DNA from: an uncultured Clostridium sp. | GTDB lineage: Bacteria > Bacillota_I > Bacilli_A > Acholeplasmatales > Anaeroplasmataceae | Length of the DNA stretch: 64,000 nucleotides | Direction: 5' to 3' | NCBI GenBank assembly: GCA_946540005.1 | Contig: CAMNHY010000001.1 | Location: forward strand, 62,001 to 126,000 | Shown here: positions 25,568-60,894 of the stretch, piece after piece | Numbering within the stretch: the stretch's first letter is position 1 | How the letters are laid out: the number at the start of each line of letters is the position of its first letter | Notes under the pieces: generated by a model | Seen by the model: only the letters and a program-made list of their open reading frames with translations | What the model was told of the DNA's origin: nothing | Database searches by the model: none | Position numbers and translations under genes: made by a program

Positions 25568-25660
25568 GCTCATGGATAAGAGAGCTTGGCTGTGAAGTGG
25601 AAGGTTGCCGATACGCCGAAAAGCGTTGTCATACAGCTGTATCGGGTTTTTCCATGGAGC
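25568..25660 (+). promoter_or_regulatory. S10 operon leader RNA with attenuator hairpin
   Basis: Nested structure before rpsJ. An outer helix joins GCTCATGGA (25568-25576) with TCCATGGAGC (25651-25660, one bulge). Inside, CCGATAC (25608-25614) pairs with GTATCGG (25639-25645) and is followed by GTTTTTCC, terminator-like. A palindromic ATACAGCTGTAT can compete. By analogy with S10 leaders bound by L4, it probably gives autogenous control; the binding protein here is inference. Confidence 0.65.
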
Positions 25661-25700
25661 AAGTCTATACAAGATTATAGGCGAAAGGAGTTTATATAAT

Positions 25701-56530: not shown

Positions 56531-56535
56531 ATAAT

Positions 56536-56623
56536 CACAAGGGCAAAACAGGAGAAATCCTGTGACGCAAAGCTAAAGGGCCTATTATTGGCAGCCAGTT
56601 ACGCATGTATCTGGCCTTTTTTT
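56536..56623 (+). promoter_or_regulatory. c-di-GMP-I (GEMM-I) riboswitch with terminator
   Basis: Aptamer core: AGGGCAAA, a P2 hairpin capped by GAAA (ACAGGA/TCCTGT), GACGCAAAGCTA, GGGCCT, and GCAGCCAGTTAC. Position 20 (middle G of GGG before CAAA) is G, position 47 is A and the C of TTAC is present, the c-di-GMP set. The 3' part of the aptamer (GCCAGTTAC, from 56594) is also the 5' arm of a terminator (CTGGC at 56611-56615, then seven Ts). Ligand binding should therefore block termination, making an ON switch for the GGDEF/EAL operon downstream. Confidence 0.9.
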
Positions 56624-56642: not shown

Positions 56643-59066
56643 TTGAGAATAAGATTAAGAGAGTTCGCTCCACATATCATTGCGATGACTATCGCGTTTA
56701 TATTTATGGTTGGTGCAAGTATCTTTTATACTTCACTTGTCAAAACGACAATTATATCTTCATCATCTGACCAAGTAAAAAAATATGCACAAGCTCAAAT
56801 TAAAGGTTTTATAGGTGCATGTGAGGAAGAAAGAAAAGAATATTTATTAGATCCTTCAGGTTATGAAGTAGTAATTTTTGAGGATGAAGACTATTCTAAT
56901 CAATATGGTTTCTTTTTATTAAGTGAAAAAGAAGCTGAGAATATAAATTCTGAAGATTTGTATTTCTATATTAGACTTGATCAAAATTCAAATAAATATA
57001 TAAAGAAATCATATAATTCAATTTATAAATTAGTTCCTATGTATAATGCTGAAAAATTTGGTGCTGTATCAAGTGATGGCCTAATTTATGAAGGTCATGA
57101 TTTAGCATCTAATAGTACTTTTTATCAACAATTATTAGATAGTCGTACTAGCAATGAAATTAAGGATGATTTCAAATCCTTTATGGCAGACAATTCAAGA
57201 ACTGTTAATGTTGTAGAAAGTTCATATTCTAATTTAGCTAATTTAAAAGGTAATGAATATTATATTGGTGTATCTCGTATTAGTAGAAGTATGTACTTTG
57301 TTACTTTATTTGATGCAAAAAGTTATGAAGGCTTAATAATTAAATCTAATAATCTTAACCTTGTATATGCATTTACATTAGCATTAACATTCTCTATTAT
57401 ATTTGTAGATTTAGCTTTGATTGTATTAAGATCTAATAGAATATTAACAATTCGTTCATCAGCATCAGCTCGTCATGGTACTGCAATTATTAGAATAAAT
57501 AAAAAAGGTAAAGTTAAATTTTATGCTAGAGGAAGAGATTCATTTGGTATTGAAGTTAATGATTTAAATATATTTATTCCTGTAAGTGGTAAAACATTTG
57601 AAGAATCATTAAAGACAGAAAATAGATTTATTGCATCATATGAAGATGATGCAAATGAAACTCAATATGCAGAATTTGTTATCGTACCACACCAAGGTGG
57701 TTATGTAGTAATATCTAATATTATTACACAAGATTATAAGAAGGATGTTGAGTTAAAGCAATTAACTGAACATAACCAAATTTCTAATTTACCTAACCGT
57801 AATGCATTATTTAAAGACTTTGAGAGTTTAAAGGGTCAATTCTTTAAACAACAAGTTACTCTTGCAAAGATTAAATTAGTAGAATTTGAATCAGTATCTA
57901 AGACATTAGGTTATTCCAGTGGTGATAAATTATTACTTGAAGCTATTAAAATTATTCAAGGTTCACTTGATAAAAATTCGTTTATTTATCAAGATGAAAA
58001 CGATACGTTAATTGTTATTTTAACAGGTACATATCAAAGAAATGATCAAGTAATTAATAAATTTTTAAATTTATTTAATAAGCCAATTCAATTGGTTAAA
58101 TCTACAATATTTGTACATTTAAAAATTGGTACAATTGAATTAAAGAATGTATTTAATAATGATTTTGATTTAAAGGATGCCTTAGAAAAAGTTTCTGTAG
58201 CCCTAAATTATGCACAGGAAAAAGTATCTGTATCTGTTGTTAAATATGACTCTAATCTAGAGATATATATTAATTATCGTAACCAAATGGAAAAAGATAT
58301 GCGTGAAGCAATTGATTCAGATGAATTTGTAATGTATTATCAACCTCAATATAATATTCATGATAGAAGAATTGAAGGATTTGAATCTTTAATCCGTTGG
58401 GATAATCCAAAATATAAAGGTGTATCACCACAAGTTTATATCGAACTTGCAGAAAAGAATGGTGATATCGTTGAAATTGGTAGATTTATTAATAGAGAAG
58501 TATTTAAAGCTGCTAAAACATTTGAAAAATATGGTGTACATTTATCAATCAACGTATCTCCTGCACAATTAATTCAATCTGGTTTTATTGATGAACTACT
58601 AACTGAATTTAAGAAAAACGAATTAAAAAAAGGTTCAGTCTGCGTTGAAATTACTGAAACTTATGTCATGCAAAACTATACTCTAATGATTGAAAAATTA
58701 AACATTTTAAGAAACACAGGATTCTCAATTCACCTTGATGACTTTGGTACAGGTTATTCATCAATGTTATATTTGAAGGAATTACCTATTGATACGATTA
58801 AGACTGATATGGAATTTATTAGAAATCTTGAAAGTGACCAGGTATCTCAAGTTATTGAAAGTCAAGTTATTAAGATTGCAAAATCATTGGACCTAAAAGT
58901 TATTTGTGAAGGTGTTGAACGTCCTACACAAGTAGAATTATTACAAAAATATGGTGCTGATTACTTACAAGGTTATTTAGTAAGTAAAGCTGTACCGATG
59001 GAAAAAGCACTTGATATGGTAAGAAATGGAGTTACTATCCCAGGCCTTAAGGAAGGAAGTAGATAA
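56643..59066 (+). CDS. membrane GGDEF(degenerate)-EAL c-di-GMP phosphodiesterase
   Basis: An 807-residue sensor-type protein. I start at the TTG at 56643, eight bases after GGAGG (56630-56634). Transmembrane helix at ~10-33, external sensor domain to ~235, second helix near 238-262, a PAS-like or unassigned domain to ~375, a degenerate GGDEF (YQDENDTLIVIL in place of RxGGDEF) at ~380-535, and a C-terminal EAL domain. EAL motifs look functional: FESLIRW (ESL variant with the metal-binding Glu), NVSPAQL, EITET, LDDFGTGYSS, CEGVERP and QGYLVSK. It probably hydrolyses c-di-GMP in response to an external signal. The riboswitch upstream would raise its synthesis when c-di-GMP is high, a negative feedback loop. 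Confidence 0.9.
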   Translation: MRIRLREFAPHIIAMTIAFIFMVGASIFYTSLVKTTIISSSSDQVKKYAQAQIKGFIGACEEERKEYLLDPSGYEVVIFEDEDYSNQYGFFLLSEKEAENINSEDLYFYIRLDQNSNKYIKKSYNSIYKLVPMYNAEKFGAVSSDGLIYEGHDLASNSTFYQQLLDSRTSNEIKDDFKSFMADNSRTVNVVESSYSNLANLKGNEYYIGVSRISRSMYFVTLFDAKSYEGLIIKSNNLNLVYAFTLALTFSIIFVDLALIVLRSNRILTIRSSASARHGTAIIRINKKGKVKFYARGRDSFGIEVNDLNIFIPVSGKTFEESLKTENRFIASYEDDANETQYAEFVIVPHQGGYVVISNIITQDYKKDVELKQLTEHNQISNLPNRNALFKDFESLKGQFFKQQVTLAKIKLVEFESVSKTLGYSSGDKLLLEAIKIIQGSLDKNSFIYQDENDTLIVILTGTYQRNDQVINKFLNLFNKPIQLVKSTIFVHLKIGTIELKNVFNNDFDLKDALEKVSVALNYAQEKVSVSVVKYDSNLEIYINYRNQMEKDMREAIDSDEFVMYYQPQYNIHDRRIEGFESLIRWDNPKYKGVSPQVYIELAEKNGDIVEIGRFINREVFKAAKTFEKYGVHLSINVSPAQLIQSGFIDELLTEFKKNELKKGSVCVEITETYVMQNYTLMIEKLNILRNTGFSIHLDDFGTGYSSMLYLKELPIDTIKTDMEFIRNLESDQVSQVIESQVIKIAKSLDLKVICEGVERPTQVELLQKYGADYLQGYLVSKAVPMEKALDMVRNGVTIPGLKEGSR

Positions 59067-59067
59067 T

Positions 59068-60558
59068 ATGATTTTAATATCTAATCCAGGAGCAATAGTA
59101 TTAACAATATTCTCGTTAATTATTACTGCTGTAGTTATCTTTTTACTAATTATTAGTATTAGAAGACAAGAAAGAAAATTAAGAGAAGAAAATGCTGTAT
59201 TAGTTGATACAATGCTTACTAAATCAGCTATTAGAGAAGCAGTAAATACATATGCAACTAGAGTCGGTTCATTTGGTTCGTTTACACTTTTCTATATTAA
59301 GATTGATGAATTTGAAACACTAACTCAAATTTTAGGTCAAGATCCTGTAGAGAATATCGTTCGTGATATTGCTGAACGTTTAGTAAGAATGTTTAAAGGT
59401 GCAGCAAATATCGCTCAATTTGATGAAAATTCATTTTTAATCTTTGATAAGAAAGAATATAATTATGAAGATTTACAAGATGCAGCAGAAAGACTATTAG
59501 AATTAGTAAGTGATAATTCTACTTCAATTAGAAATAAAGCTATTAATGTAACAGCTTCAATTGGTGTAGCGATATATCCTACTTGTGGTATTACTTTTAA
59601 GGAATTATATTCAAACCTTGAACTTGCAACTTATATTGCAAATAGACAAGGTGGAAATAAATATTTAATTTATTATAATGAATTAAAGGAAGAAGAATCA
59701 GGTAATCTTGAATACTTTAATGAAGTTAGAGAAGCCATGAGTAAAGGTGAATTAACTTTGTATTATCAACCTATTGTATCTGTTAAAACAAAAGCCTTAT
59801 ATGGATTTGAAGCATTAATCAGATGGGAACATCCAATCCACGGTATTATTTCACCTGCTAAATTTATTCCAATATTGGAACAATCAGGTGATATAACATT
59901 CCTTGCAAAATGGTCACTTGAGCAAGTTATTCAAATGCAACAAGCATTAGAAAAAGTATATCCTAACAGAGATATTAAATTAACAATTAATTTATCAGTT
60001 AAGCAAATGATGGAAGAAGGAATGGCTGAAGATTTCAAAAAGATTATTAGAAAATATGGTGCAAATCCTTCAAAAATTATTCTTGAAGTTGCACAATATG
60101 CAATGTTTGAAAAAATGAACGCTGTCCGTGTTAATTTATTAAGATTACGTGACACAGGATTCTTAATTTCAACAGATGGTCTAGGTCTAGATTTTGCTGC
60201 AATTTCTCAAATTGAAAGTAAACCTATTGATATCTTAAAGCTTGATAAGGAATTCCTTGAAGATATTAATGATAATCAAATGCAAGAACGTTACGTTCAA
60301 ATGCTTGTTGAATCTAGTGAAAAAGCCGGAAGAATTGTTGTATCTGAAGGTGTTGAAAACTATGAAAAACTTGATTATATTAGAAAAAATAATATCGAAT
60401 ATATCCAAGGTTATTATATTTCAAAACCTTTCCCTGGTTCAGATGTTCAAGAATTTATTCATAATGAATCATGGGTAGAAAAGATTGATCATGATGTCAA
60501 TAATGAAGATAATATTGTTGATTTAAACAAGATTGAAAAAGATCTAAGAAGTGAATAA
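59068..60558 (+). CDS. membrane-anchored degenerate GGDEF-EAL protein, candidate c-di-GMP receptor
   Basis: 496 residues from the ATG at 59068 (AAGGAAG upstream), one base after the previous stop. A single transmembrane helix (~12-35), then GGDEF-like (~65-220) and EAL-like (~230-475) domains. Both active sites are eroded: the GGDEF motif reads FDENSF, and in the EAL domain DDFGTG has become TDGLGL and EVTE has become EVAQ, although EALIRW, the Lys of DILKLD, SEGVE and QGYYISKP remain. This pattern, binding pocket kept but catalysis lost, is seen in receptors such as LapD and FimX. Being in the phosphodiesterase operon, it could report local c-di-GMP to a partner, for example a protease or secretion component. 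No partner is encoded here. Confidence 0.85.
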   Translation: MILISNPGAIVLTIFSLIITAVVIFLLIISIRRQERKLREENAVLVDTMLTKSAIREAVNTYATRVGSFGSFTLFYIKIDEFETLTQILGQDPVENIVRDIAERLVRMFKGAANIAQFDENSFLIFDKKEYNYEDLQDAAERLLELVSDNSTSIRNKAINVTASIGVAIYPTCGITFKELYSNLELATYIANRQGGNKYLIYYNELKEEESGNLEYFNEVREAMSKGELTLYYQPIVSVKTKALYGFEALIRWEHPIHGIISPAKFIPILEQSGDITFLAKWSLEQVIQMQQALEKVYPNRDIKLTINLSVKQMMEEGMAEDFKKIIRKYGANPSKIILEVAQYAMFEKMNAVRVNLLRLRDTGFLISTDGLGLDFAAISQIESKPIDILKLDKEFLEDINDNQMQERYVQMLVESSEKAGRIVVSEGVENYEKLDYIRKNNIEYIQGYYISKPFPGSDVQEFIHNESWVEKIDHDVNNEDNIVDLNKIEKDLRSE

Positions 60559-60604: not shown

Positions 60605-60633
60605 TTGACAAAACTTTACTTTTCACATATAAT
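60605..60633 (+). promoter_or_regulatory. consensus promoter of the tandem-riboswitch operon
   Basis: TTGACA at 60605-60610 and TATAAT at 60628-60633 with 17-base spacing, both perfect. The start near 60640 gives a leader of about 255 bases before the first gene. A small hairpin (CATAGA/TCTATG, about 60641-60658) lies at the leader's 5' end. Confidence 0.9.
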
Positions 60634-60670
60634 ATAGTTGCATAGAGGAGCATCTATGTATAAAAATTTA

Positions 60671-60750
60671 ATATTAGTAAAAGCAAAATAAGAGCAATCT
60701 TATGACGCAAAGCTATAGGGCCTAAATTAGGTAGCCAGTTGCAGTAATGT
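60671..60750 (+). promoter_or_regulatory. GEMM-I riboswitch aptamer A (tandem, A20 variant)
   Basis: Core: AAAAGCAAA, P2 ATAAGA-GCAA-TCTTAT with a GNRA cap, GACGCAAAGCTATAGGGCCT, GGTAGCCAGTTGC. P1 can form between ATATTA (60671-60676) and TAATGT (60745-60750, one G-U). Position 20 is A (60682), where the c-di-GMP form has G; A47 and the C of TTGC are kept. No terminator separates it from aptamer B. The A20 change is the one that shifts GEMM-I aptamers toward cGAMP or mixed binding. Confidence 0.85.
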
Positions 60751-60826
60751 AAAAAGCAAACCTAGAGAAATCTAGTGTACGCAAAGCTATAGGGCCTGAA
60801 TTTAAAAATGGTAGCCAGTTGCACAT
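60747..60826 (+). promoter_or_regulatory. GEMM-I riboswitch aptamer B (tandem, A20 variant)
   Basis: Core: AAAAAGCAAACC, P2 CTAGA-GAAA-TCTAG, GTACGCAAAGCTATAGGGCCT, GGTAGCCAGTTGC. Position 20 is again A (60755). One extra base (T) sits between the P2 helix and ACGCAAAGC compared with the other two aptamers. P1 is ATGT (60747-60750) with ACAT (60823-60826); those first four bases are also the 3' strand of aptamer A's P1, so the two helices exclude each other. Confidence 0.83.
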
Positions 60827-60853
60827 CATTTTAAATGATATGCAACTTTTTTT
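60818..60853 (+). terminator. riboswitch-controlled terminator
   Basis: GTTGCA (60818-60823) pairs with TGCAAC (60841-60846) and ATCATT (60825-60830) with AATGAT (60834-60839), then seven Ts. The 5' arm is the 3' core of aptamer B, so ligand-bound B and the terminator are mutually exclusive (ON switch). A further small hairpin follows at about 60851-60873, before the ribosome site. Confidence 0.9.
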
Positions 60854-60894
60854 ATTTCAATGCATGAAATAAAATACCTAAAGGAAGTGAGATT

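Follow-up and report, generated by a model that had tools for sequence, protein, structure and literature searches.

How does a cell read a second messenger with two riboswitch aptamers that stand directly one behind the other, and which messenger is it? This question is raised by the leader of a putative matrix operon in an uncultured Clostridium sp., found close to the end of the window (the whole stretch of 64,000 nucleotides that was analysed). The leader contains two GEMM-I aptamers, here called A and B, and both carry a base that is known from riboswitches for 3′,3′-cGAMP.

Architecture of the leader and its operon

Both aptamers were identified with the RF01051 covariance model, with scores well above the gathering score of 35. 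In one search aptamer B was masked, solely because overlapping matches of the same clan are suppressed. The two matches overlap by 2 nt. By covariance score both belong to the c-di-GMP-I class, and with two complete aptamers in a single leader the locus is a one-class tandem riboswitch, as the preliminary description had stated from the letters alone. It had also correctly placed an A in both aptamers at the position equivalent to Vc2 position 20, just 5′ of the conserved GCAAA, and a G in the single aptamer further upstream. An A at this position is the sequence mark of GEMM-Ib, the cGAMP subclass. Aptamer B is not a perfect copy: it carries an additional nucleotide at the P2 base, in the 3′ half (UCUAG-U-G-UACGC), which is also present in B of the congener G001 (read by eye from the alignment).

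Features of the tandem riboswitch locus (positions in the window)
Feature	Position	Strand	Remarks
Single GEMM-I aptamer	56532-56606	+	G20/C92; fronts two EAL genes (812 and 510 aa)
Promoter, sigma-A (sigma-70) type	60605-60633	+	TTGACA-17-TATAAT, 12/12 match
Aptamer A	60672-60746	+	A20 at 60682, C92 at 60742; RF01051 60.8 bits; compensatory P2/P3 changes relative to congener
Linker, C92 of A to A20 of B	60743-60754	+	12 nt; putative overlap of P1A 3′ strand and P1B 5′ strand
Aptamer B	60745-60826	+	A20 at 60755, C92 at 60822; RF01051 57.8 bits; congener alignment
Intrinsic terminator	60817-60854	+	from folding; stem interrupted by a single C x A mismatch (60824/60840), then T-run
P245	60895-61632	+	opens the matrix-type operon; without a Pfam family; homologues in 25 family genomes
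P431	61610-62905	+	secreted TasA/camelysin-like protein; FSWL signal
P327	62967-63950	+	secreted TasA/camelysin-like protein; FAWF signal

The terminator was taken from folding (hairpin 60817-60847 followed by T7, −12.7 kcal/mol), since a terminator scan, whose model needs an unbroken G+C-rich stem, listed none. In aptamer B, the P3 3′ strand, C92 and the 3′ strand of P1 all fall within the 5′ arm of this terminator. The interval between A and B contains neither a T-run nor a hairpin terminator, and the leader thus has one terminator that overlaps B only, in agreement with the preliminary description; it does not belong to the tandems with one platform per aptamer. In the minimum-energy fold calculated for the ligand-free leader, A pairs with B (CUAUAG with CUAUAG) and the terminator forms. 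The same fold contains a hairpin in the linker (UUGCA-GUAA-UGUAA, −2.4 kcal/mol); the congener uses a different pairing. A possible leader ORF of 11 codons (MYKNLILVKAK, 60656-60691) preceded by AGAGGAG lies in a 5′ hairpin and ends within aptamer A. As a leader peptide starting at the ATG at 60656 it was rejected, as inspection by eye revealed no ATG with a ribosome site in the congener.

The operon continues past the end of the window with P333 (FAWY), a signal peptidase I, an AAA ATPase, a 725-aa protein and a second signal peptidase I. We regard it as a candidate matrix operon of the TasA/camelysin type; the names, including those of the genes beyond the window, were given by resemblance, and none of the family models matched the operon proteins. 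The matrix-type operon behind the tandem had been recognised in the preliminary description as well. Two GGDEF-EAL genes, headed by the single G20 aptamer, are located upstream of the tandem. The 510-aa EAL protein (59026-60558) has a degraded DDFGTG motif (STDGLG) as well as a degenerate GGDEF part, and is probably inactive as a phosphodiesterase. Elsewhere in the window, an S10-Clostridia ribosomal leader was found at 25584-25684 (RF03136, 41 bits).

Base readers of the binding pocket and the ligand

Altogether, 106 aptamers of the family were compared at positions 20 and 92 (two of them, L110 and L113, both G20/U92, were read by eye, and the B aptamers of window and congener were entered manually). 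The canonical G20/C92 was found in 62, A20/C92 in 26, G20/U92 in 17 and C20/C92 in one; A20 and U92 never occurred together (0 of 106, Fisher p = 0.005). Exactly one altered base reader, A20 or U92, is present in 20 of 25 matrix-operon leaders versus 19 of 74 others (odds ratio 11.6, p = 2.5e-6), a comparison in which related species are counted separately, so that Fisher p-values overstate independence, and in which the grouping into matrix and other leaders was noticed in the data that were tested. At the matrix operons, defined by a P245-like first gene, the proximal aptamer is A20/C92 in eight cases, G20/U92 in 12 and canonical in five; G031, at a contig end, was counted as G20/U92 because of its near-identity to G032. 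On the P245 tree (24 rows) the three states change at least nine times, and altered and canonical pockets at least four times. A20 and U92 have replaced one another repeatedly on this tree.

The pattern extends beyond the family. The strict G20/U92 pattern was found in 23 genomes among 395 of the class, and 18 of the 20 loci read (L193-L212) precede a P245-type operon, five of these 18 being loci of the same family that were already counted above; the remaining two (L200, L203) stand before small secreted FAYW proteins. A search for the A20 pattern in 160 genomes of the order, with C or U allowed at position 92, retrieved C only. Several relatives carry arrays of two to four aptamers before the operon, and most of the arrays that were read have a terminator after each aptamer. 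U92 thus looks like a usual form at the matrix operons of the order, and the lineage of the window has A20/C92 instead, together with a compact tandem. In G012 and G022 (L176 and L179) the P245 gene is present and no recognisable GEMM-I leader precedes it; the gene directly ahead of P245 appears, in L179, to encode an EAL protein.

The presence of A20 in both aptamers had been taken to point to cGAMP or to mixed c-di-GMP/cGAMP binding. The base is indeed there, and deriving cGAMP from it is doubtful. The genome itself encodes seven GGDEF domains; in the intact ones the Hypr position is occupied by the canonical Asp. With a strict motif, the 55 family genomes gave more than 160 canonical (Asp) matches among those listed, in 38 genomes; the Ser/Thr (Hypr) version of the same motif gave none in the 55 genomes, and SMODS-type CD-NTases were likewise found in none of the 55, a result to be read with a genome of the window that is 75.7% complete and a strict Hypr motif, which might miss an unusual cGAMP synthase. 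The phosphodiesterases adjoining the tandem are EAL proteins, and in the family some of these are preceded by the same aptamer type. Natural variants at G20 and C92 were reportedly found by Smith et al. in 2010 to bind c-di-GMP, more weakly. According to an NMR and mutational study, the G20-equivalent position acts as a selectivity factor and not as a hard filter, and a G-to-A mutant at this position retains c-di-GMP binding (PMC9262584). A20 alone is thus poor evidence for cGAMP here.

Nevertheless, the pattern of substitutions can be read in favour of cGAMP. The matrix operon might be controlled by 3′,3′-cGAMP, with A20/C92 and G20/U92 reading the near-symmetric ligand in opposite orientations and being interchangeable as equivalents. 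A mixed G/A ligand predicts that A20 and U92 exclude each other; this matches the matrix leaders with one changed reader and never both, and the repeated interchange on the P245 tree. Furthermore, A20 is known from cGAMP riboswitches in Geobacter, and it enhances the binding of cGAMP by an aptamer from Desulfobacca acetoxidans (PMC6456294, PMC9481103). Like the Geobacter GEMM-Ib riboswitches, some of which are tandems, the aptamers of the window combine A20 with C92 (PMC6456294); unlike them, they belong to another phylum, precede another operon and occur in a lineage in which neither a Hypr GGDEF nor a SMODS cyclase was found. The missing synthases, the neighbouring EAL proteins and the five canonical G20/C92 pockets among the 25 orthologous leaders, which are expected if all of them sense c-di-GMP, speak against this reading, and we consider it unlikely. 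Slightly less probable still is the full scenario, in which a lineage of Bacilli would run its matrix operon by 3′,3′-cGAMP made by an undescribed synthase, with mirror-image pockets replacing each other and the single-terminator tandem as a cooperative version. As a ligand, cGAMP is unproven and disfavoured.

The role of aptamer A

The congener G001 carries the tandem at the corresponding site; its linker is 11 nt long, and its terminator has the same C x A mismatch. Position 20 is an A in aptamer B of both genomes; in aptamer A it is an A in the window and a G in the congener, and A20 of aptamer A is therefore not fixed. This difference, together with a terminator that is contacted by B only, would fit a decaying duplicate without function, with B as the sole switch and A20 as near-neutral drift. 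We regard this as quite improbable, as all core motifs are kept in A, its covariance score is 60.8 bits and paired changes have accumulated in P2 and P3 between two genomes whose P245 proteins are about 55% identical. The conservation of the tandem together with these paired changes suggests that aptamer A is most likely functional.

Compact linkers of 6-12 nt were also found in Clostridia and in Bacillota MAGs (L132, L138, L139, L141, L142, L144), and the close-packed tandem therefore appears to be a recurrent architecture; 19 loci came up when compact tandems were scanned for, and several of them are probably due to chance. A compact GEMM-I tandem before the EAL operon (G025, L094, 399-551) has a C at position 20 of the second aptamer, which was seen nowhere else.

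The preliminary description had proposed that A and B share P1 strands and compete for them, so that A could oppose B and, with unequal affinities, a band-pass or two-input response would result. The complementarities exist as quoted (60671-60676 with 60745-60750, and 60747-60750 with 60823-60826), and the recurrence of compact linkers would suit such competition. Pairing of P1 changes the fold energy by +0.1 (P1A) and +0.7 kcal/mol (P1B), and both helices are thus predicted to be thermodynamically neutral. In a control in which flanks were swapped between family aptamers, the mean P1 score was 8.5 for real and 7.75 for swapped flanks (n = 104 aptamers); the tandem of the window ranked at 0.043 (P1A) and 0.13 (P1B), that of the congener at 0.74 (P1A, absent) and 0.37 (P1B). 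The shared strands are thus present without rising above chance. Moreover, Cd1, another GEMM-I aptamer, binds c-di-GMP and no P1 signal was detected for it (PMC9262584). The preliminary description had itself made its proposal dependent on joined P1 strands and a conserved A20, and relatives depart from this in part: in addition to the G20 of the congener, other family tandems (G003, G023) have linkers of 17-24 nt with room for two separate P1 strands. Because of the energies, the swapped-flank ranks and the lack of P1A in the congener, P1 competition was rejected, and we consider it very improbable.

Taken from the aptamers, the promoter and terminator, their conservation and the pattern of pocket substitutions, the model that we favour, with fair though limited confidence, is a transcriptional ON switch that senses c-di-GMP through a detuned pocket and in which A helps B at a single terminator. 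Without ligand, the terminator would take up the P3 3′ strand, C92 and the 3′ strand of P1 from B and keep the matrix operon off; ligand on B would block the terminator and allow transcription of the operon. Aptamer A lacks its own platform. Ligand-bound A might keep its strands from mispairing with B (the linker hairpin and CUAUAG/CUAUAG) and would in this way steepen the response, as a helper or AND-like element and not as an opponent of B; this helper role is a possibility computed from fold energies. The ligand would likely be c-di-GMP. With one altered base reader in the pocket, and the lowered affinity expected from it, the threshold would probably be higher than in the cell's canonical G20/C92 sensors.

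Comparison with known tandems and implications

Tandem c-di-GMP-I riboswitches are known as 347 doublets and 12 triplets (PMC9481103), and the triple riboswitch Bc3-5 of B. thuringiensis has been characterised (PMC4759541). The locus of the window shares with them a 5′ leader with GEMM-I aptamers arranged head to tail, the intrinsic termination, the presumed ON direction and an operon for surface proteins. It differs from Bc3-5, which has a terminator for each aptamer, by two aptamers with one terminator and a 12-nt linker. The arrays of relatives in the order, among those read, mostly have one terminator per aptamer as well, and Table 1 of PMC9481103 appears to place c-di-GMP-I tandems under multiple expression platforms, whereas here one platform serves both aptamers. 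Two aptamers of the same class with one expression platform are also found in the glycine tandem riboswitch, which has a different fold and ligand; no sign of a conserved contact between the aptamers was seen here.

The riboswitch is of a known kind, and the pattern of altered readers at matrix operons is an unexpected and new comparative result. The compact tandem with one terminator offers a simple case of two aptamers that share a platform. If the pattern holds, it would represent a natural experiment, in which one regulatory site has repeatedly swapped one altered base reader for the other. It would then make two ideas testable: that the thresholds of sensors are set by a detuned riboswitch pocket, or that a second messenger so far unknown in this lineage controls the matrix operon.
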